From NCBI GenBank assembly GCA_947496375.1, contig CANMCY010000023.1, positions 1-36,174 of the forward strand: a DNA stretch of 36,174 nt, in the 5' to 3' direction. The stretch comes from Flavobacteriales bacterium (lineage in GTDB: Bacteria; Bacteroidota; Bacteroidia; NS11-12g; UBA955). Positions 6,593 through 26,151 of this stretch are shown in pieces (the stretch's first letter is position 1; each line of letters opens with the position of its first letter). Under the pieces are notes generated by a model. That model did no database searches and was not told the DNA's origin. It saw nothing but the letters and a program-made list of their open reading frames with translations. The translations under genes and the position numbers were made by a program.

Positions 6593-8704
6593 CTAGGGTG
6601 CAAAGGTAATGGGTTTGATAATGAACCCGTTCCTTGTCTGAATGCGAACCAGATAAATTGAGCCGTTATCCACAGCGAGATTACCTAAGGTAATCAATGA
6701 TTTACCCACAGGCATAAATTTTTTGCATAGGGTTTGAATCACCCGACCCTGAACATCACAGATATCTACAGTTACCGGCATCCCCATGGTAAGATTGAGT
6801 TCCAAAGTTGCGTTATCTCTAGCCGGATTTGGGTAAACAGCTGCTTTTACTTCATCCTTTTCTATTATGTGGGTTCCGGAAAACCACTGGCTTACATTGA
6901 TATCGTCTATCCAAACCGAGTTTCCAGAATTGCTGATGATATCAATACGGAAAATGGCATTTTTCACCGTATCCAGTCTATTGAGCTGTGAAAAAGAAGG
7001 AATATTAATCAGTTTCCACTGGCTTTTGTTTACCGGAACAAAACCGGGCTTGGAAGTACCGCCGGAATATGCGAGGCCTGTACCTGTTCGTTCAAGAATC
7101 TGACGGAATGAATTTCCGCAGTCTGTGGAAACGTAAACCCTGAGAATTTCAGAAGCGGTAGGATCAGAGGTAGGCAGGGCGTATGCAGCATAGAAAGAGA
7201 GTCGGGCAGGTAAACCCAGTTTGCCCAGTTTACTCAAGTCATAGGAAGGTGTACGGAAGCTAAAAACTGTTCCGGAAGCGGTAAATGAATTAATCTTGGC
7301 CTGATAGCTTTTGGCACCCGTATAGGACACTGTATCTGCTAAAGTCCATCTGGAACCTGAAGGAGAAAGGTGCTGAAAACCACGCCCAACGGGATCACTT
7401 TCAAACTTTTCTTCCGCATTGGGATATAGTGCAGACTCCTGCCCTATTACTTCTATGTAATCGGTTACAGAAGATGAATTACTGCCTTTTGCGTTTTGCA
7501 CCGTGAGCGAAACTGAATATTTACCGGCAGTCTGGTAAATTACTACCGGGCTTTCTGAGCTTGAAGACGGAGAGGATGAACCCGGTAAGCTCCAGCTTCG
7601 CGCTGTTACCGTGGCTTTGCAACTCATATCATAAAATTTCACCGGCTCGCCGGCACATACCACCCTATTGGAGGATGAAAACGAGGCAGTAGGCGGAGTA
7701 GATGAATTAGGGGTAATACCGGTAGCCAGCAAATTGGCGGCAGAAACATTCCCTGAGCGAGGTGACCTTGCGAGATAATATTCCATTATTGCTTTTTGCT
7801 GCTTCGTAAACATGGCCATGCAGCTGCCATCGCTGTAATCCATGTAATTTTCCCACTGATCGGGAAGATTGGGATTATCATTAGAGCAGCTATTTCCGTT
7901 GGCAGGGCAGCTGGCATTGGTGAAGGTAGAGGCCACTGGAGGTGTATCGTCGCACTGATCATCATCATTACAACCACCTTGGAATGTATGAAACAATCCC
8001 AGCCAATGACCCACTTCATGTGTAAGGGTTCTGCCGCTGTCTCCGGGAACTGCAGTGCCAATGGTACCCACACGGTCATGACGCATTACAATACCATCCA
8101 CGGCTGAATTTGTTAAAAATGGGAAAACAGCATAACCCAGGGTGGTGCCATTGCCCGAAGATTGTATACTTGTTACCACCCAAATATTCAGGTATTTGGT
8201 ATAATCCCAGCGAGCAATGGATTTAACGGTGGCGTTTGATTGATCTACATCAACTCCATACGGACTGTACACACGATTTATACCATCCGTACATTTGCCT
8301 GAAGGATCAATGTTGGCCAGCTTAAATTCAATCTGGCAATCGGCGGCCACCGCGGTAAACTGGCTACGGATTTTGGTCCGGTTGGGATTCAGAAAATTAA
8401 AATCCTGATTCAATACCCGAACCTGATCCAGAATCTGTTCGCGGCTAATATTTTCAGCACCATTGGTATGGATGACGTGGAATACGACGGGAATGGTGTA
8501 TTTGGCGGCTCTTCTAACCGGATTATTTCTGGCGGCGCGCGCCTCGGCATTGTATGCTTCGCGCTTGGCTGCCAGTGTAGGATCTTGCTTCAGCATTTGC
8601 TGATAGTGCAACTCTGTTCCGCACGAATGCTCATGGTGAAACTGGGCTGATAAAGGTAAAAGGAAGGAAACCAGTAAAGCCGCCGCGGTAAATATTTTCT
8701 TCAT
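6593..8704 (-). CDS. Secreted M43 (pappalysin/cytophagalysin-type) metalloprotease with PKD domain and T9SS tail
   Basis: A 703-residue secreted zinc protease. The chosen ATG at 8704 gives a clean signal peptide (MKKIFTAAALLVSFLLPLSA, cut near residue 20); the in-frame ATG at 8761 would put 19 extra residues before it and lies upstream of the promoter box. The metzincin site HEVGHWLGLFH has His229, Glu230, His233 and His239, and a Met-turn follows at NYMDYSDG (Met288). Several Cys residues flank it, as in M43 enzymes. A PKD-like domain lies at about 345-430, followed by a beta-rich domain. The C-terminus has YPNPARDNATLELN and ends KPITFAP, a type A sorting domain for export by the type IX system. 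The product is probably cell-surface-bound or released and degrades proteins, but the target is unknown. It has its own promoter and lies between yraN and topA. Confidence 0.92.
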   Translation of the reverse strand: MKKIFTAAALLVSFLLPLSAQFHHEHSCGTELHYQQMLKQDPTLAAKREAYNAEARAARNNPVRRAAKYTIPVVFHVIHTNGAENISREQILDQVRVLNQDFNFLNPNRTKIRSQFTAVAADCQIEFKLANIDPSGKCTDGINRVYSPYGVDVDQSNATVKSIARWDYTKYLNIWVVTSIQSSGNGTTLGYAVFPFLTNSAVDGIVMRHDRVGTIGTAVPGDSGRTLTHEVGHWLGLFHTFQGGCNDDDQCDDTPPVASTFTNASCPANGNSCSNDNPNLPDQWENYMDYSDGSCMAMFTKQQKAIMEYYLARSPRSGNVSAANLLATGITPNSSTPPTASFSSSNRVVCAGEPVKFYDMSCKATVTARSWSLPGSSSPSSSSESPVVIYQTAGKYSVSLTVQNAKGSNSSSVTDYIEVIGQESALYPNAEEKFESDPVGRGFQHLSPSGSRWTLADTVSYTGAKSYQAKINSFTASGTVFSFRTPSYDLSKLGKLGLPARLSFYAAYALPTSDPTASEILRVYVSTDCGNSFRQILERTGTGLAYSGGTSKPGFVPVNKSQWKLINIPSFSQLNRLDTVKNAIFRIDIISNSGNSVWIDDINVSQWFSGTHIIEKDEVKAAVYPNPARDNATLELNLTMGMPVTVDICDVQGRVIQTLCKKFMPVGKSLITLGNLAVDNGSIYLVRIQTRNGFIIKPITFAP
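6601..6608 (-). promoter_or_regulatory. -7 promoter box of topA
   Basis: TACCTTTG on the minus strand lies just before the stop codon of the upstream protease gene. With the following CACCC it forms a 13-base string, TACCTTTGCACCC, identical to the one at 11733-11745 before uvrA. No clear -33 TTTG is present at the usual distance. The predicted leader is roughly 30 nt. Confidence 0.55.
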
Positions 8705-8713
8705 GAATGGGTG

Positions 8714-8721
8714 CAAAAATA
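8714..8721 (-). promoter_or_regulatory. -7 promoter box of the M43 protease gene
   Basis: TATTTTTG on the minus strand, followed by CACCC, sits 9 nt before the ATG at 8704. It supports that start over the in-frame ATG at 8761. No convincing -33 element was found. Confidence 0.55.
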
Positions 8722-8776
8722 ACCTTTTTGATGTTGCTTGGTTTTCGAAATTTTCGTGCATGACAGTAAAATGACC

Positions 8777-14591: not shown

Positions 14592-14615
14592 TTCACACAT
14601 CTATTATCTTTTGCC

Positions 14616-14640
14616 AAAAAAACATATATTTGTTTTTTTT
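14616..14640 (+). promoter_or_regulatory. Promoter box inside an A/T hairpin before the S74 protein gene
   Basis: TATATTTG (14625-14632) matches the -7 box and leaves 14 nt to the ATG at 14647. The box lies in a perfect inverted repeat: AAAAAAACA (14616-14624), loop TATATT, then TGTTTTTTT (14631-14639) and one more T. In RNA this could act as a weak terminator for uvrA, whose stop is 24 nt upstream. Both roles are inference, and A-U stems are weak. Confidence 0.4.
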
Positions 14641-14646
14641 AGCAAC

Positions 14647-16629
14647 ATGAAAAAACAATCAATACTGGCTTTCCTGTGCATTCTTGGGTACATGGGTATA
14701 TCTAATGCGCAGGCCCCCAATTTGTTTTCATACCAAGCGGTTATCCGGGATGGCAGCGGCACACTTGTCATCAATTCAGGCATTGGAATGGAATTAGTTA
14801 TCCGACAAGGTAGTTCTACCGGAACTGTAGTTTACAGCGAAACGCAAAAAGTCAACAGCAACGCCAATGGATTAATCACAGCCCAAATAGGAGCCGGTAA
14901 TGTTGTGAGTGGTAATATAAACAGTATAGACTGGAGCAAAGGACCCTATTTCCTGGAAAGTAATTCTGATGCTACCGGGGGCAACAACTACACTATCAAA
15001 GGGACAACGCAGCTATTGTCTGTGCCATACGCACTATATGCCGCAAAATCAGGCAATGCTGTAACAACAGCTATTATAGCGGGTCAGGGAATGAGAAAGA
15101 GCGGCGACACCCTGCATGCAAATTCAGAAAATGATATTTGGAATGCCGGTAAAATCAAAGGTAAAGCTGTTTCAGGAATTTCACCTGCCAAAGACGATGT
15201 TTTGCAGTGGAATGGAACGGAATGGATACCTGCCAAAATCAGCGCAGGTGGCGGAGGAGGAACATTGAATGTGATAGCAGGAAACGGCCTTAAAAAAAGT
15301 GGGGATACTCTAAGTGCATTAAACAAACAAGCTATATGGAGTGCGGGTGATATAATGGGGAGAAGTATTTCAACAGCTACTCCTGCCAAGGATGATGTAT
15401 ACCGTTGGACTGGGACTGCGTGGGCTCCATCGGCAATTACAGGCGGAGGTGGCGGCAGCAATCCTACAGTGGCCGGTTTTGGCCTGTTAAAAAATGGTGA
15501 CACTCTGTCGGCAAGAGCCAATTTCGCCATGTGGAATGCGGCCTATTTACAAGACAATTCCGTTTCGTCTGCCAAGCCCGCAGCCAACGATGTTTTGCAA
15601 TACAACGGCTCAATCTGGGCACCTGCAGCACTAACCGGTATGAGCGTTTTCGCCGGCACAGGATTATCCAAAAATGGTGATACACTGGACGCATTGAACA
15701 ATACAGCCATGTGGAACGCCAATCTGCTTCAGGGCAGAAGCGTATCTTCTACTGCCCCATCCACCAATGATGTATTGAAATGGAATGGCAGCAGCTGGGC
15801 ACCGGGTACCGGCGGAAGCGGCAGCAGTATCAGCTGCGGAACATCGTTTAATACCAATTACACAGTGCGTGGCACCGGTAGCGGAAGCTGGGAATGTACC
15901 GATGCCATTTGGATTAATAGCACAAAAAATGTTGGTATCGGAACCACCTCACCATCTTCCTCCTTCGACTTATCTGTTGGTACATCGGGCCTTCTGGTAA
16001 ACGGTTCCACCACTACTTCCAACTTTGCAGGAAGGGTTCGCATAGGCAGCACATCCACCACCAGTTATGACCTGCAAGTTGATGGCGATGGATACATGAC
16101 AGGAGGACTGAGGGTAGGCACAACATCAGCGCCCGCCACGGGTGGTATTATGGCCAATGGAGTGATAGAAACCAATGCGCGTTTTATCATGAACTCAAGC
16201 ACTACCGGAACCGGAACTACGGTTGTACGTACATCCGGCGGTGAATTAAGACCCACCTCCTCCACCATACATGTGAAGGAAAATGTTAAGAATCTTCAAT
16301 TTTCTAAAGAGAAATTATTGTCACTCAGGCCGGTATCATACAATCTGAAACCAGCTTTGGGTGGGGATCATGAAATAGGATTGATTGCAGAGGAAGTAGC
16401 AGAATTCATACCCGAACTTGTTGTTTTTGGTCCCGAGAGGAAATGGAAAGGCAACACAGGTATAGCCGAAACTGATGCTAATGGTAGAGAGATTCTGAAC
16501 TACAACAAAATGGTTCCCTACTCAGTACACTACGACAGACTGCCTGTTTATTTGCTCAGTATTATCAGGGAACAGGAAACAAGAATAAAAAATCTGGAAG
16601 AACGCTTGGAAAAACTGGAAAGACGCTGA
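14647..16629 (+). CDS. Secreted repeat protein with C-terminal S74 intramolecular chaperone domain
   Basis: A 660-residue protein. ATG at 14647 gives a signal peptide (MKKQSILAFLCILGYMGISNA, cut near 21-23); the TTG at 14611 would add 12 residues and lies upstream of the promoter box. Residues 24-140 form an N-terminal domain common in Bacteroidota surface proteins (FSYQAVIRDGSGTL ... LLSVPYALYA). Four imperfect repeats of 60-66 residues follow at about 143-387, each with a G-x-G-[ML]-x-K-[SN]-GDTL core and ending W-[IA]-P. After a beta-rich stalk comes an S74 domain (about 539-637) like that of phage tail spikes, with Ser539 and Lys544 placed as the self-cleaving dyad, and a terminal coiled coil (REQETRIKNLEERLEKLERR). 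The product is probably a trimeric surface fibre. There is no T9SS sorting tail and no phage genes nearby. Confidence 0.88.
   Translation: MKKQSILAFLCILGYMGISNAQAPNLFSYQAVIRDGSGTLVINSGIGMELVIRQGSSTGTVVYSETQKVNSNANGLITAQIGAGNVVSGNINSIDWSKGPYFLESNSDATGGNNYTIKGTTQLLSVPYALYAAKSGNAVTTAIIAGQGMRKSGDTLHANSENDIWNAGKIKGKAVSGISPAKDDVLQWNGTEWIPAKISAGGGGGTLNVIAGNGLKKSGDTLSALNKQAIWSAGDIMGRSISTATPAKDDVYRWTGTAWAPSAITGGGGGSNPTVAGFGLLKNGDTLSARANFAMWNAAYLQDNSVSSAKPAANDVLQYNGSIWAPAALTGMSVFAGTGLSKNGDTLDALNNTAMWNANLLQGRSVSSTAPSTNDVLKWNGSSWAPGTGGSGSSISCGTSFNTNYTVRGTGSGSWECTDAIWINSTKNVGIGTTSPSSSFDLSVGTSGLLVNGSTTTSNFAGRVRIGSTSTTSYDLQVDGDGYMTGGLRVGTTSAPATGGIMANGVIETNARFIMNSSTTGTGTTVVRTSGGELRPTSSTIHVKENVKNLQFSKEKLLSLRPVSYNLKPALGGDHEIGLIAEEVAEFIPELVVFGPERKWKGNTGIAETDANGREILNYNKMVPYSVHYDRLPVYLLSIIREQETRIKNLEERLEKLERR
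15073..15807 (+). repeat. Four tandem coding repeats (about 60-66 codons each)
   Basis: Units begin near 15073, 15271, 15469 and 15646. Shared positions are the AG-x-G core, K-[SN]-GDTL, a W near position 25 of the unit, S[VI]S before an [AP]-x-x-[ND]DV string, and a closing W-[AI]-P. The first two units end in a Gly5 linker. Spacing is 66, 65 and 60 residues. The units have diverged, so this is an old duplication and not a recent expansion. Confidence 0.8.
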
Positions 16630-18124: not shown

Positions 18125-19015
18125 TTAACGTTGTTCTTCCTCAAATCTGAGCTGTTGGCTTGTTTTACGGCTTCCATCATGACTCCAACCGGGCGGACCA
18201 AAAACATACATAAACTTTTCGCGAATGCCGGGTGCGGATTTTACATCATGCCACATTTGTCTCCACTCATTAAAAAGAATATTGCCGGGATTATAGGTAT
18301 TTAAGTTGGTGGTTAAACCATATTTGATTTTATCATACTTCTCATCTTCCGGCTCAAACGTGCCAAAAATCTTATCCCATACAATCAGTATCATACCCAT
18401 GTTTTTATCGAGGTAACGTGGATTACTGGCGTGATGCACCGCATGATGGCTGGGACTCACAAAAATCCAGTCCCATACCGGTATGCGTTGGATGAGTTCT
18501 GTATGAATGATAGATCCATAGAGCTGCTGAATGGAAAATGCCAACACTATGTCGGCAGCTTCAAACCCAATAAACCCCAGCGGTATGAAGAATAAAAACC
18601 GATATAGCGGCTCAAAAACAGAACTGCGAAAACCCACTGTGATATTGTATTTCTCGCTGCTGTGGTGAACCGTATGGACTGCCCAGAAAAATCGAACCAT
18701 GTGGCTCATCCAGTGCACGAACCAGTACACAAGGTCTGTGAGTACAATAGCGGCTACCCAATACAGGACACCATGCTCATTCCAGCTGATGAATCGGTTG
18801 GGAAAAGACCAGCTCATCAATAGCAGAAACGCACCCCGCATTGCAGTATCCAGCAGGATATTCAAACTGGTCATTAAAAAATTGTTGAGGGTATCTTTGG
18901 TTGTGTAGAGCTCCCTTTTGAGATAAACGCTTGCCAAAATTTCGGCCAGAATGGTAACCGTATAAACGGGCACCGAAATGATGACCATTGCCTGTTCCCA
19001 CCAATATTGTTCCAT
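18125..19015 (-). CDS. Sterol desaturase/fatty acid hydroxylase family, AGMO-like
   Basis: A 296-residue integral membrane di-iron oxygenase of the fatty acid hydroxylase superfamily. Several hydrophobic helices at about 10-32, 45-68, 82-100, and 137-170 surround the three His boxes: HWMSH (101-105), HTVHH (114-118) and HHAVHH (190-195). The segment around the third box, HTELIQRIPVWDWIFVSPSH, and the following NPRYLDKNMGMILIVWDKIFGTF resemble alkylglycerol monooxygenase (AGMO/TMEM195) more than sterol C-4 or C-5 enzymes. The substrate could be a glycerol ether lipid, a fatty acyl chain or another membrane lipid; this cannot be decided here. ATG at 19015 follows a -7 box by 7 nt. It is divergent from the AsmA-like gene with 80 nt between starts. 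Confidence 0.85.
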   Translation of the reverse strand: MEQYWWEQAMVIISVPVYTVTILAEILASVYLKRELYTTKDTLNNFLMTSLNILLDTAMRGAFLLLMSWSFPNRFISWNEHGVLYWVAAIVLTDLVYWFVHWMSHMVRFFWAVHTVHHSSEKYNITVGFRSSVFEPLYRFLFFIPLGFIGFEAADIVLAFSIQQLYGSIIHTELIQRIPVWDWIFVSPSHHAVHHASNPRYLDKNMGMILIVWDKIFGTFEPEDEKYDKIKYGLTTNLNTYNPGNILFNEWRQMWHDVKSAPGIREKFMYVFGPPGWSHDGSRKTSQQLRFEEEQR

Positions 19016-19022
19016 CCTGTCG

Positions 19023-19030
19023 CAAATCTA
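19023..19030 (-). promoter_or_regulatory. -7 box of the hydroxylase gene
   Basis: TAGATTTG on the minus strand, followed by CG, ends 7 nt before the ATG at 19015. There is no clear -33 element. Confidence 0.5.
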
Positions 19031-19065
19031 CATCAGTTCATCTATACATGCCTTACATTCCGCAC

Positions 19066-19073
19066 TATTTTTG
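19066..19073 (+). promoter_or_regulatory. -7 box of the AsmA-like gene
   Basis: TATTTTTG followed by CA lies 22 nt before the ATG at 19096. The upstream in-frame start at 18988 is 78 nt before the box, within the divergent gene, and is rejected. Confidence 0.55.
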
Positions 19074-19095
19074 CAGTAATTTCGTTACACTAAAA

Positions 19096-22020
19096 ATGCA
19101 AAAGAAGTTTATTAAATATACAGGCATTTCCATTGGGGTTATATTCATATTATTGCTGATTATCCCCTTTTTTCTCAAAGGCCCTGCATTGAAAGCCATC
19201 AAGAAAGTCATCAATGAGCAGGTAAATGCGCAAGTTGCTTTTGATGAAGACATCAGTTTGGGTCTGATTCGCAATTTCCCCGATTTATCTGTTGGCATAA
19301 ACAATATATGTATCATTGGCAAAGACAGCTTTGAGGGAGATACCTTGGCATACATACCCAAACTATCATTAACCGTTGATTTAATGAGCGCCATAGGTGA
19401 AGGACCTGTAGCGTTGCAAAAAATAGGATTGAGACGTCCGCGTATTTTTTTGCAGACCCTTGAAAGCGGAACCGCCAACTGGGATATTGTAAAATCAGAT
19501 ACTACGGCAAAAGTGGCTACAGATACTTCCGGAAAAGGCTTCAAACTCGACCTTCAATTGCTGGAAATAGAAGATGCAACCGTGGACTACAATGATAGAA
19601 GTATCGGTTTCAGAACGCTGATAACAGGTATGAATCATGAGAGTTCAGGCGATTTTACCCAGGACGAGTTCACGCTAAAAACCCATACTGAAACAGATGC
19701 ATTAACACTTACATACGGTGGAATGGACTGGTTACAAGGAATAAAATCCAATATTGATGCAGAACTCGGTATGAATATGAAGCAAATGAAATTCAGCTTC
19801 AAAGAGGCCAAAGCGCGATTGAATGAACTGGATATTCAAAGCAATGGCTTTGTGGATTTGAACGAAGAAGACATAGAAATGGATATTTCTTTTAAAGCGC
19901 TTCAAAATACATTCAAAAGCTTCCTGAGTATCGTACCAGGCATGTATAGCAAAGACTTTGAAAAAGCAGAAGTAAGCGGAGCATTGGCGTTGCAAGGTTC
20001 ACTCAAAGGCACAATGACCGATGCCAAGATGCCCAAAACCGAAATTGGATTGCAGGTGATTAATGGGGCCTTCCACTATCCTCAATTATCACAGTCTGCC
20101 CAAAATATTCATATAGATTTTGTATTCTCCAATCCGGATGGTGTGCCAGACAACAGTATAATAAACCTCAAAAGACTACAGATGAATTTGGCCGGGGCAC
20201 CCATATCAGTAAAGTGCCTTCTGAAAACACCTGAAAGCAATCCCTACATCGATGCGGAAGCCAAAGGCAGTATAGAACTGTCAAAAATTAAAAATCTGCT
20301 TCCATTGGAAAAAGGGACTGACATAGCCGGCATGGTGAATGCCGATTTATCTATGAAAGGTTATTACAGTCAGTTGAGCAAAACACAAGTTCAAAATTTA
20401 CAGGCGGGCGGGAAGCTGGAAATTAAAAATCTTGTTTGGAAAAATGCCAAGGAATCTGCTCAGCTCAGCGATTTTGCCCTGCAATTTACCCCACAGAAAA
20501 TTTCCATGCCCACTTGTATTGGAAACGTAAATGGCAATGATTTCAATGTAAGCGGTATACTTAATCAATTACCGGGTTATTTGTTCAATGATGAAGCCCT
20601 GCAGGGAACCCTCTCATTCACGAGTAAATTCATCAATATAAACAGTCTGATGTCTGCCTCAGAAACACCCGCAAGCCAGGGAGGAAGCACAGAACTTCCC
20701 ATTATAGAAATACCCAAAAACCTTGATTTAACGCTGAATACCAGCATTGATAAACTCATTTATGAAAAATACACGCTAACCGGTATTTCAGGAAATGTGG
20801 CGGCTAAAGACGGTATCCTCAACCTCAACAAACTGCAAGCGGACATGTTGGGTGGACACGTTGTGCTGAACGGAAACTATGACAGCCGAGACACCAAACA
20901 TCCAATAACTGAAATAAATACTACTGCCACCGGATTCACTCCATCTACCACGGCAGCGAACTTCCCAATGATTCAGAAATATGCCCCTATTTTCAGCAAG
21001 TTGGAAGGTTTATTTGACGCAGGAATTGAATTAAAGAGTTCGCTGGACAGCAAAATGCAACCCGATTATAAGGATTTGAACCTAACCGGAAAATTATCCC
21101 TGAGTCAGTCCGGCATACAAGGAACCGAGTTTTTAAAACAGCTTGGCAAACAACTAAACACCAGTTCTCTGGATAGATTAAATATTAAACCCCAGAAAAT
21201 CAATTTCCGTATACATGACGGAGCTTTTGAGCTATTAGACAGTCTGAACTTATCCTTGCCGAGTGGCGGTGTGATGAGATTGTCTGGACATACAAATCTT
21301 GACCAGACCATTTCCTATGGCGGCTGGTTAAAAGTACCTGCAAAAAACATTGGGACAGGGAATGCACTCCTAAGGGAATGGAACCAAAAGACTGGCCTTA
21401 ATGCGAAAACACAGGAAGAAATTCCGGTTGATATTCGCATTTCCGGTACCATTACCAAACCCTTAGTTTCAGTTTCTCTTAAAGGTTTTGCCCGGTCGGT
21501 AAAAGAAAACCTTAAAGACGCAGCTACAGTGGCATTGGAGAAAAAACGGGCTGAAGCCCTGAAACTGGCTCGTGAAAAGGGCGAATTATTGAAAAACGAA
21601 GCAGCCAAAAGAGCGTCACAGATTCGAGAGGAAGGAAGAAAGCGGGCGGCACAATTAACCGGTGAAGGCCAACAAAAGGCCAATCTAATTCGTCAGGAAG
21701 GTGAAAAAGCAGCTGAAAGGATTAATACTGAGGCACAGAAACAAGCTGCAGCAATCGAAGCCAAAGCCACCGATCCCTTACAAAAAGCCGTTGCCAAAAA
21801 GGCGGCCGACAAGGTTAGAGATGAGGGCCGAAAGAAAGCTGAGGCAACCAGGGGGGAATTTAATCTGAGGGCCAGGCAAACAGAAGAAGAAACTACGAAA
21901 AGGGCCACTCAGATGCAGGGAGAAGCGGATAGAAATGCCGATAAAATAGAGCGAGAGGCAAGTGATAAAGCAGCACAGCTTCTTAAAGAGGCAGAAGAAA
22001 AAAGTACGTTAGAAAAATAA
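19096..22020 (+). CDS. AsmA-like envelope protein with C-terminal 11-residue-repeat tail
   Basis: A 974-residue protein. ATG at 19096 is followed by a basic start and one membrane helix at about 10-27 (ISIGVIFILLLIIPFFL), then the AsmA-type beginning (KAIKKVINEQVNAQVAFDEDISLGLIRNFPDLSVGINNI). AsmA/TamB-type proteins form long beta-rich grooves in the periplasm and are linked to phospholipid movement between membranes. The body to about residue 800 has the repeating beta pattern and a late AsmA-like domain (LNLTGKLSLSQSG ... SGGVMRLSGHTNL). The odd part is 821-974: an almost Pro-free, Ala/Glu/Lys/Arg-rich helical tail built of about 14 units of 11 residues. The stop lies 6 nt from the end of the convergent flavoprotein gene, and no terminator fits between them. 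Confidence 0.85.
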   Translation: MQKKFIKYTGISIGVIFILLLIIPFFLKGPALKAIKKVINEQVNAQVAFDEDISLGLIRNFPDLSVGINNICIIGKDSFEGDTLAYIPKLSLTVDLMSAIGEGPVALQKIGLRRPRIFLQTLESGTANWDIVKSDTTAKVATDTSGKGFKLDLQLLEIEDATVDYNDRSIGFRTLITGMNHESSGDFTQDEFTLKTHTETDALTLTYGGMDWLQGIKSNIDAELGMNMKQMKFSFKEAKARLNELDIQSNGFVDLNEEDIEMDISFKALQNTFKSFLSIVPGMYSKDFEKAEVSGALALQGSLKGTMTDAKMPKTEIGLQVINGAFHYPQLSQSAQNIHIDFVFSNPDGVPDNSIINLKRLQMNLAGAPISVKCLLKTPESNPYIDAEAKGSIELSKIKNLLPLEKGTDIAGMVNADLSMKGYYSQLSKTQVQNLQAGGKLEIKNLVWKNAKESAQLSDFALQFTPQKISMPTCIGNVNGNDFNVSGILNQLPGYLFNDEALQGTLSFTSKFININSLMSASETPASQGGSTELPIIEIPKNLDLTLNTSIDKLIYEKYTLTGISGNVAAKDGILNLNKLQADMLGGHVVLNGNYDSRDTKHPITEINTTATGFTPSTTAANFPMIQKYAPIFSKLEGLFDAGIELKSSLDSKMQPDYKDLNLTGKLSLSQSGIQGTEFLKQLGKQLNTSSLDRLNIKPQKINFRIHDGAFELLDSLNLSLPSGGVMRLSGHTNLDQTISYGGWLKVPAKNIGTGNALLREWNQKTGLNAKTQEEIPVDIRISGTITKPLVSVSLKGFARSVKENLKDAATVALEKKRAEALKLAREKGELLKNEAAKRASQIREEGRKRAAQLTGEGQQKANLIRQEGEKAAERINTEAQKQAAAIEAKATDPLQKAVAKKAADKVRDEGRKKAEATRGEFNLRARQTEEETTKRATQMQGEADRNADKIEREASDKAAQLLKEAEEKSTLEK
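21556..22017 (+). repeat. Hendecad (11-codon) repeat region in the AsmA-like gene
   Basis: Splitting residues 821-974 of the product into elevens lines up units such as IREEGRKRAAQ, LTGEGQQKANL, IRQEGEKAAER and INTEAQKQAAA: hydrophobic at position 1, Glu at 4, Gly/Ala at 5, Ala near 9. After IEAKATDPLQK the frame shifts by one residue and continues (RDEGRKKAEAT ... QGEADRNADKI, EREASDKAAQL) to the end. Confidence 0.8.
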
Positions 22021-23402: not shown

Positions 23403-24530
23403 ATGCACATCGGCAGGCTGCAACTGTTTTATTTTAAGAACCACAACGAACAGCACCTGCAGTTTTGCAATGGCATCAATTGCATTACAGGTCCCAATGG
23501 CAGCGGAAAAACCAATATTCTGGACGCGGTTTACTACCTGGCCAATACCAAGAGTTTTTTTAATGGAATAGATCAGCAACTGATTAAACATGGACAGGAG
23601 TTTTTTAGCATACACGGTTTTTTTGAAAATGATACTACCACGGAGATTCTGGTAAACTTTGGCAAAAGCAAAAAAACGCTTAAGAAAAACGGCAAGGTAT
23701 ATAGTCGGCTGATAGACCATATAGGCATCATACAAACGGTATTTATTACGCCCTATGATATTTCGCTGGTGCTTGAAGGCAGCGAGGAGCGCCGCCGGTT
23801 TCTGGACTTCACCATCAGCCAGACCGACAGGTCTTATCTGGAGCAACTAAGTTTGTATAAAAAGCTGCTAGATCAGCGAAATGCTTTTTTAAAACAAGCT
23901 GAAGGTCGCCCGGTAGATCCCATATTGCTGGAAACTTTTGATGATAGAATGGCTAAGGCCGGCCAGATTATTTTTGAAAAAAGAAGGGACTTTATTGCTG
24001 AATTTACTTCATATTTTCAAGAATTATACCGGTTTTTAAGTGGAGACGCAGAACACCCTACCCTGCTGTATGTGAGTGAATTGCACGAAAAGCCCCTACT
24101 AGATATCTTATTTCTCAGCAGGGAAAAAGACAGGGTGCTACAGCGCACAGGCAGTGGCATTCATAAGGATGATCTTGAATTTTTACTGAGCGATTTTCCG
24201 CTCAAAAAATATGGTTCTCAGGGTCAAATCAAAAGCTACGTCATTGCCTTAAAACTGGCTCAGTATAAGTATTTCCTTGAAAAAACAGGGAAGAAACCCA
24301 TTTTGCTGCTGGACGATATTTTCGAAAAAATTGATGGCAATCGGGCCGGAAAGCTCATGGAACTTGTTGCAAGAGATTATTTCGGGCAAATTATCATTAC
24401 CGATACGCATGCTGACAGGGTGAAAGAGCATTTAGAAGGATTGGCCGTAGACAAAAAATACTTTGCGCTGGAGATGCCAGTCAATACAAATGCTGCACCG
24501 GCTCAAAATTCCAGCGAAGACCCAGATTAA
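23403..24530 (+). CDS. recF: DNA replication and repair protein RecF
   Basis: A 375-residue RecF, an SMC-like ATPase that with RecO and RecR helps load RecA at single-strand gaps. Walker A is GPNGSGKT at 30-37. Further landmarks are VFITPYDISLVLEGSEERRRFLD in the middle, the ABC-type signature YGSQGQIKS, and Walker B KPILLLDDIFEKID. The D-loop and the late IITDTHADRV complete the ATPase. Length is normal. It stands alone here, away from dnaA, dnaN and gyrB, which is common in this phylum. ATG at 23403 lies 4 nt after the promoter box. The last 50 nt overlap the end of the convergent RemB/Wzi-like gene, so the Asn/Ala/Pro-rich final residues of RecF are encoded opposite that gene's C-terminal codons. 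Confidence 0.96.
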   Translation: MHIGRLQLFYFKNHNEQHLQFCNGINCITGPNGSGKTNILDAVYYLANTKSFFNGIDQQLIKHGQEFFSIHGFFENDTTTEILVNFGKSKKTLKKNGKVYSRLIDHIGIIQTVFITPYDISLVLEGSEERRRFLDFTISQTDRSYLEQLSLYKKLLDQRNAFLKQAEGRPVDPILLETFDDRMAKAGQIIFEKRRDFIAEFTSYFQELYRFLSGDAEHPTLLYVSELHEKPLLDILFLSREKDRVLQRTGSGIHKDDLEFLLSDFPLKKYGSQGQIKSYVIALKLAQYKYFLEKTGKKPILLLDDIFEKIDGNRAGKLMELVARDYFGQIIITDTHADRVKEHLEGLAVDKKYFALEMPVNTNAAPAQNSSEDPD

Positions 24531-26151
24531 ACCAGTTTCCTGACGACGGATGCCAGCCGGTTTGGTTTCGGTACAGCCAGCTTAAATCTATGTTTACATT
24601 GTGGTAGAGCATGTAGGTAATATCTACCTTAAAGGAACGAATGTTTGATAATTCTCCCTGCAACATGGTAATCCCGTCGTCTCCTACCCTCATATCATTG
24701 TCGCGGCGGGGATTGCTGCCAAAATTGGTTCCATTCAGCCAGGGATCGTTTCCTTGTTTGGCCATCATAGCCAGCGCGTGAATGCGCAGGTTTGGCAATA
24801 TTTTGGGCTGAAAGAAACCTTTAAAACTCCATTCCCTAAAATTACTGCCCAAGGGATGCGCCAATGGCTGATTATAATGGGTGTAGCTGTTCAACACATC
24901 GGAGTGTGAATAGGTATAAGGCCTGACCGTGTTGTATTCAGCCTGAAGCAGACCATTGCCTTTGGTTGTTCTTAGAATACGCATGAGACCCAGCTGCCAG
25001 CCGAATTTATTGCCCCACCAGCCACCCTGTTTCAATTTGTTCAGCTTAAACTCATCCAGCAAGCCCTGACCGTAAAATCTCCATCGATAAGGCAAACTAT
25101 AGGTAAAATCAAATGCCATCAGGGCATTATCGGCACTGCCGGCATTGGCTTCTGCCGAACGATAAAAAATGATGGGGTTCAGGTAATCGAGATCAAAACC
25201 TCCTTGCGGACGATTATGGATAATCATTTCAGAAAAGCCAAGTTCCAGCTTTTGAAAGGGATTGGCAAATGTTAAGCTGCCCCTATGCATGGCAACATAT
25301 TTTTTTGGCAACAGCGTGTTTCCTGAAAGCGGTGTAAAACCATTCAACTGACCGTATAAATTTTGGTATTTAAAGGGCCCCAGGGATGTATTTAAGCGAA
25401 TAAAACCATAGGGACCAGCATGGTTGCTTAAAATCAAACTGCGAATGCCCTGGCCGACAAAAAAGCGGTCGTGCCCGGCACTCATTACAATGTGATTTTT
25501 GGCCGTTACATCATTCAGCAATGCGGCAGAAATGTAGCCAACCGACTGCAGATAGTCTGACTGAGCAGCTGCTACACCGCCATTTTGTCCGGCACCTTTC
25601 CACCAGCCCAGTCCGGGAATCACCCCCAGCGAATCGCGGTAACGATTTACAAATTGCGGGAAATACGACTGGTTTTCAGTAACGCGGGAATAAAAAGCCA
25701 CTTTCCGCTGAATGTTGCCCCGAACCTCTACCCCTCTTCCATTTTGATTAAAAGTGCTTTCAAAGCCACTCCCTGCCTGTAAATTCAACACAGGATTAAC
25801 AATGAAAGTGGAATTCCCTTTTATGTTCACATCCTGCCAGCTATAAAACATCCCTTTGCGATGAAATAACCGGTTTCTGCCAACGGTTTGTATTTTCTTC
25901 AATCCAACAAATCGCGGTGAAGATTCCGGATTGTCCGTAACAAAATAGTTTTTAAAAGACACCCCCCTGCCTTGAGCAATACTATCGGAATTACCTTGCC
26001 ACACCCTCGGATTAAAACGCAGACTATTTCCGCCATCCTGCGTAATAATCAATTGCAATTCCTGCCAGCAACCCGGTTCATAGACAATATACTGGGCATT
26101 TGCCTGAAAACATGCACAAAGTAGCAGAGACAGGATAAACCTTGCTTGCAT
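24481..26151 (-). CDS. Outer-membrane beta-barrel protein, RemB/Wzi-like
   Basis: A 556-residue exported protein. A signal peptide (MQARFILSLLLCACFQANA) is cut near residue 19, and the rest is rich in alternating aromatic and polar strands typical of outer-membrane barrels, ending NLGLRWNFEPVQHLY. Segments such as FSEMIIHNRPQGGFDLDYLNPIIFYR and WWGNKFGWQLG recall the Bacteroidota RemB proteins (gliding-associated) and the related Wzi capsule-assembly barrel, though this is from memory of the families and not from a search. It could bind surface polysaccharide or support surface adhesin transport. No glycan genes adjoin it. ATG at 26151 follows a -7 box by 4 nt. Its 3' end overlaps recF convergently by 50 nt. 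Confidence 0.7.
   Translation of the reverse strand: MQARFILSLLLCACFQANAQYIVYEPGCWQELQLIITQDGGNSLRFNPRVWQGNSDSIAQGRGVSFKNYFVTDNPESSPRFVGLKKIQTVGRNRLFHRKGMFYSWQDVNIKGNSTFIVNPVLNLQAGSGFESTFNQNGRGVEVRGNIQRKVAFYSRVTENQSYFPQFVNRYRDSLGVIPGLGWWKGAGQNGGVAAAQSDYLQSVGYISAALLNDVTAKNHIVMSAGHDRFFVGQGIRSLILSNHAGPYGFIRLNTSLGPFKYQNLYGQLNGFTPLSGNTLLPKKYVAMHRGSLTFANPFQKLELGFSEMIIHNRPQGGFDLDYLNPIIFYRSAEANAGSADNALMAFDFTYSLPYRWRFYGQGLLDEFKLNKLKQGGWWGNKFGWQLGLMRILRTTKGNGLLQAEYNTVRPYTYSHSDVLNSYTHYNQPLAHPLGSNFREWSFKGFFQPKILPNLRIHALAMMAKQGNDPWLNGTNFGSNPRRDNDMRVGDDGITMLQGELSNIRSFKVDITYMLYHNVNIDLSWLYRNQTGWHPSSGNWFNLGLRWNFEPVQHLY

Follow-up and report, generated by a model that had tools for sequence, protein, structure and literature searches.

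The AsmA-family protein encoded in the window, the 36,174-nucleotide stretch of DNA analyzed here, ends in a tail that is very probably a rod built as a helical hairpin, as judged from structure prediction. The tail itself is real and conserved, and the job we assign to it is a guess. On the reading we tentatively favor, short of even confidence, a straight two-helix rod would be hinged to the body of a lipid bridge, with a basic tip docking to a membrane or to a partner. The coordinates of the gene and of the segments of its product are collected in Table 1.

Table 1. Segments of the AsmA-family gene and its product within the window
Feature	Residues	Position	Strand	Basis
AsmA-family gene	974 aa + stop, ATG start	19096..22020	+	ORF list, translation, Pfam AsmA PF05170
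N-terminal hydrophobic helix, presumed inner-membrane anchor	2-42	19099..19221	+	AlphaFold2 secondary structure; hydrophobic stretch GISIGVIFILLLIIPFFL
Beta-rich AsmA body	43-796	19222..21483	+	AlphaFold2 strands throughout; Foldseek matches
Hinge (probable)	807-818	21514..21549	+	Low pLDDT in full-length model
Hairpin arm 1, 11-residue repeat	815-889	21538..21762	+	Lag identity; both AlphaFold2 models
Hairpin turn (KATD)	890-893	21763..21774	+	Helix break in both AlphaFold2 models; orthologue conservation
Conserved basic tip, DPLQKAVAKKAADKVRD	893-909	21772..21822	+	Family consensus [ND]P[LI]xKxAAKKAAxK; charge counts
Hairpin arm 2, 11-residue repeat	894-972	21775..22011	+	Lag identity; both AlphaFold2 models

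The gene, its body and its neighbors

The open reading frame spans 18988..22020 on the forward strand, and the ATG at 19096 is the likely start codon. When the body was scanned alone, Pfam AsmA was found at 40.7 bits (cut-off 29.8) over residues 3-171, which bears out the AsmA-type body proposed by the sequence-only reading. AsmA was not among the Pfam matches when the whole protein, body and tail, was scanned by hmmscan, presumably because of the biased composition of the tail; automated annotation may thus overlook AsmA proteins that carry repetitive tails. The tail belongs to no Pfam family. Its scan returned FliH, DivIVA, Scy and HflC, all far below their cut-offs, and these were rejected as relatives and taken as common helix composition.

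AlphaFold2 predicted both the N-terminal helix and the beta-rich body of the AsmA family, with mainly strands following the helix up to residue 794, and TamB in TamAB as well as apolipoprotein B are among the Foldseek matches of the full-length model. By analogy with the AsmA-like proteins of E. coli, the N-terminal helix presumably anchors the protein in the inner membrane. This gene gave the only AsmA-family match of the genome over the Pfam cut-off apart from one TamB, paralogues having been sought by profile search only. The TamB C-terminal domain PF04357 is absent from this gene, the only matches to it in the genome lying on contig C13, and the C-terminus of the genome's own TamB has no comparable helical tail. 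Operon partners were considered and rejected: both flanking genes lie on the opposite strand, and they adjoin the AsmA gene in near relatives only.

Elsewhere in the window, an M43 metallopeptidase with a PKD domain is encoded at 6596-8761 on the reverse strand and carries a Por_Secre_tail, which makes it a probable cargo of type IX secretion. The forward strand at 14611-16626 encodes a 672-aa protein with a C-terminal Peptidase_S74 domain (intramolecular chaperone of endosialidase); such domains are usual on phage tail spikes, and here the context is chromosomal. An ORF of 556 aa at 24484-26151 on the reverse strand had no Pfam match at E 1e-5.

Repeat, predicted hairpin and probable hinge of the tail

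The sequence-only reading had placed a tail of 154 residues with an 11-residue period at nucleotides 21556-22017; these coordinates and this length are right and correspond to residues 821-974. Over residues 797-974 (178 aa), identity at lag 11 was 0.25 (z = 6.2 against 1000 composition-preserving shuffles), with further signals at lag 22 (z = 3.7) and lag 33 (z = 2.4). Lag 7 gave z = -0.7, so that the period is 11 rather than 7, and a heptad coiled coil was rejected. Autocorrelation pointed to no competing period. The register shift noticed earlier also exists: the registers stand 20 residues apart instead of 22 across IEAKATDPLQKAVAKKAADK. The shift wipes out the single Fourier line at 11/3 (power 0.2), and hydropathy then shows an apparent period of 3.74. 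Tandem Repeats Finder detected no DNA repeat in the gene, which indicates that the period is maintained at the protein level; a recent origin by DNA tandem duplication was rejected, as no array was detected. By a first motif count, 44 of 45 orthologous tails with the turn motif described below likewise have more lag-11 identity than their shuffles (z > 3).

In the full-length AlphaFold2 model the tail is predicted as two helices broken at KATD-P, and the same break was found when the tail was modeled alone with 46 aligned tails (pLDDT 94.6, pTM 0.76). The tail thereby joins period 11 with helices in two models, the combination expected of a hendecad coiled coil. The models are of single chains, and among the orthologues the hairpin was modeled for the protein of the window only. 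In 47 orthologues, N or D occupies the turn in 44 and P the next position in 42; the turn consensus, [ND]P[LI]xK, coincides with the register shift. The earlier expectation of a long, nearly straight helix held for straightness and failed for the single helix, since one continuous helix of ~26 nm is contradicted by the conserved turn and by both models. An alpha-helical rise of ~1.5 A for every residue puts the arms, from their residue counts, at 11-12 nm each, and the rod could by this estimate supply much of the periplasmic span missing from the 800-residue body. In the full-length model, pLDDT fell below 50 at residues 807-814 and 816-818, whereas in the tail-alone model a helix runs straight through the same region, so that the hinge is probable.

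The antiparallel course of the tail is read from its fold matches, which run contiguously through known hairpins. The PDB matches are antiparallel hairpins, namely chemoreceptor cytoplasmic domains, Smc coiled coils, a designed bundle and the antifreeze protein Maxi. On straight or Ala-rich hairpins the rmsd was 2.1-3.2 A (4tql over 155 residues, 4ke2 over 174, 1jad over 161 and 8e4g over 127), whereas the chemoreceptors and other typical heptad hairpins, which are left-handed, gave 6-9 A. Straight helices are expected for 11-residue packing, and the packed helices may form a straight or right-handed supercoil, the observation bearing on this being the low rmsd on straight bundles. The E-values of these fold matches were weak (best 0.014 for the tail), and no weight is placed on folds missing from the match lists. 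Since a Z near 10 is frequent by chance for helical models, the matches reflect shape and not kinship. Across orthologues, the lengths of the two arms correlate with r 0.57 in the raw data but with r 0.21 (p 0.07) by independent contrasts. Matched growth, nearly gone after phylogenetic correction, was therefore dropped as proof of the hairpin. Some orthologue tails have clearly unequal arms (78/48 and 86/49), which indicates that pairing of the arms over their full length is not general.

The sequence profile of the tail matched best a designed bundle, 4uos (2.8e-7), with weak matches to ATP synthase b, V-ATPase E and apolipoprotein A-IV (E 0.005). The last of these bears on the earlier suggestion of a helix of apolipoprotein or LEA group 3 type that could lie on a membrane; taken further, such amphipathic helices would aid the entry or exit of lipid at the groove. 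Repeats of 11 residues are typical of such helices and the tail is rich in lysine, but the bulky hydrophobic residues I, L, V, M and F make up only 10 of 75 residues in arm 1 and 10 of 79 in arm 2 (~13% each). Each arm has one hydrophobic stripe, its core positions are mostly Ala or Gly and the remainder is highly charged; furthermore, a well-packed hairpin was predicted with high confidence for the tail alone. The suggestion is weakened, and we consider membrane-lying helices improbable; of all the alternatives, this is the one most clearly opposed by the single stripe and the Ala/Gly-rich core.

The other profile matches lend themselves to a different alternative, in which the tail is an oligomerization domain: two hairpins would form a four-helix bundle, dimerizing the lipid bridge, and the basic tip would be secondary. 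ATP synthase b and V-ATPase E function as paired helices (PMC6131620), and Maxi, whose Ala-rich hairpin of 11-residue repeats was fitted to the tail at 2.8 A, forms a dimer (PMC5304152). However, the one stripe of each arm would already be buried by the hairpin, and the arms are otherwise highly charged. We regard oligomerization as rather unlikely.

Tail forms and the basic tip among orthologues

Of 58 near relatives, 46 have an orthologue, as do 165 of the 197 genomes sampled from the class; further orthologues occur elsewhere in the phylum, in some of its other classes. The protein described here belongs to this Bacteroidota AsmA-like group, sharing with it both homology along the full length of the body and a charged C-terminal tail. 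The statement that AsmA proteins normally stop after the beta body did not survive this comparison for the present family: every complete orthologue examined carries a charged, helix-prone tail of 44-204 aa, and the repeat tail is absent from one distant paralogue (L043). Compared with the two nearest full-length relatives, amino acid identity is 78-83% in the tail and 76-77% in the body, and synonymous sites are saturated or nearly so. Inside the genus, conservation of the tail is thus about equal to that of the body, and the alternative of an unconserved, unstructured run found no support from this comparison or from the helical models.

Assigned from sequence, the 102 tails of the class fall into hairpins with the turn motif and the 11-residue repeat (47), single helices, mostly with a 15-residue repeat (45), and short tails (10). 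In the first motif count, period 15 was the most frequent period in tails lacking the turn motif (33 of 58). In other classes the tails are 44-69 residues long, frequently with a basic-hydrophobic ending such as KKKLKIKWP, and the shortness of these tails suggests that the hairpin and the single helix are each lengthened forms. Three orthologues stand apart. The last 154 residues of L099 form a long charged tail with z 0.6 at period 11 and z -0.6 at period 15, perhaps a fourth form. In L110 and L112 a non-repeat stretch (TGLDIKTDSLAK and ALGTDVELDRDS, respectively) precedes the repeat, and these tails are possibly intermediates between the short and long forms.

On the body tree of the 102 orthologues the tail forms interleave, with at least 19 changes on the best, unrestricted tree; the starred branches of the same tree require at least 7 changes for the hairpin form, and a separate IQ-TREE analysis of the window's family forced at least two interchanges between hairpin and single helix. 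Interchange of hairpin, single-helix and short forms on this scale would be expected of a neutral spacer, for which any long charged helix suffices and the forms drift. Inside each form, however, the period, the turn motif and the tip charge are preserved, and the turn region is 95-100% identical in near relatives; we hold the spacer to be the least probable of the alternatives. It is possible, though less than an even prospect, that the periplasmic rod has been rebuilt repeatedly, passing between a hairpin of 11-residue repeats and a single helix of 15-residue repeats with a basic patch kept at its far end. If true, the rebuilt rods would be a natural series from which to learn which contacts an AsmA-like bridge needs at its distal end.

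The range of tail lengths also bears on whether the rod is folded back onto the AsmA body so as to cap or stiffen the groove. The predicted hinge would allow this, but tails vary from 44 to 204 aa although the body is well conserved, and no interface was readable from the model outputs; such folding back seems very unlikely. The single-helix tails have weak matches to ATP-synt_B and V-ATPase_G_2, which would suit oligomerization in another guise, a parallel pair of helices forming a two-helix bundle; as part of the same explanation, it is rather unlikely to the same degree.

The evidence for the docking tip that we favor comes from charge. The pattern was noticed first in the data and counted afterwards: the 17 residues from the turn onward have a mean net charge of +3.0, compared with +0.2 in the rest of the tail, and are the more positive in 47 of 47 hairpin orthologues, among which the P and K of the tip motif are nearly invariant. 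In the last 15 residues the mean net charge is +3.2 in single-helix tails, +3.5 in short tails and +0.7 in hairpin tails. The C-terminus is basic in 41 of 45 single-helix tails and 9 of 10 short tails, and near neutral in hairpin tails. Hairpins are thus basic at the turn and single helices at the C-terminus, in each case at the end of the rod farthest from the body. The relatedness of the orthologues weakens this rule: across seven independent pairs on supported branches, the C-terminal charge differed as expected in 5 on average and in the opposite direction in 0.1 (median p 0.06).

Proposed role and comparison with known systems

In the mechanism we propose, the tail is very probably a rigid rod of two straight alpha-helices of ~75-79 residues, packed antiparallel through a hendecad Ala/Ile core, joined at the N/D-P turn and hinged onto the distal end of the inner-membrane-anchored AsmA beta-groove. 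The basic tip of the rod lies about 11 nm away from the hinge in this prediction and would most likely dock on a negatively charged surface or on a partner, perhaps at the cell wall or toward the outer membrane. Docked in this way, the tip could hold or position the lipid bridge at its open end. In orthologues with a single helix of 15-residue repeats, the basic C-terminus would substitute for the turn.

To our knowledge, little is known outside Proteobacteria of the contact between AsmA-like lipid bridges and the outer membrane. The orthologue group occurs in most of the class genomes sampled, and here the bridge ends distally in a clearly delimited rod that can be deleted and whose tip is conserved, which makes the docking question directly testable in a genetically workable species of Bacteroidota; where nature has exchanged hairpin rods for single helices or the reverse, the variants to compare already exist. 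Among the papers searched, none has AsmA and hendecad together.

The lipid-bridge role of this protein is itself inferred from its E. coli relatives, the only members for which phospholipid transport between membranes through the groove has been shown (PMC8912898, PMC12800296). In common with the AsmA family and with the AsmA-like TamB, YhdP and YdbH of E. coli, the protein has an N-terminal membrane helix and a long beta-rich periplasmic body; it differs from them in the helical rod added behind the body, and TamB is described as terminating in a beta-stranded C-terminal domain (PMC12045153, PMC12800296). The AsmA-like proteins listed for Flavobacterium johnsoniae, five in number and compared here by description only, belong to the same phylum and broad family and may include orthologues of this protein; the part of that source drawn on here makes no mention of a helical tail on them (PMC12045153).

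The designed long helical bundles 4tql and 4uos have long antiparallel helices like those of the tail (4tql at 3.2 A), but they are artificial and consist of three or more helices. Maxi (4ke2), the type I antifreeze protein of winter flounder, resembles the tail as an Ala-rich 11-residue-repeat hairpin, and its dimer builds a four-helix bundle (PMC5304152); it is, however, an ice-binding fish protein with a water-filled core, and common descent is not implied.

The peripheral stalks of rotary ATPases (b, E and G) are Ala-rich right-handed coiled coils built on repeats of 11 and 15 residues, and they include ATP synthase b and V-ATPase E (PMC6131620). They differ from the tail in having two chains, no hairpin and no AsmA body, and in not being periplasmic; the likeness, accompanied by weak sequence matches, is one of repeat type rather than demonstrated homology. 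In the A-ATPase stalk, subunit E is hendecad and G changes to a 15-residue repeat, both being right-handed, and the alternation of 11- and 15-residue tails among the orthologues parallels this E/G pair (PMC6131620).
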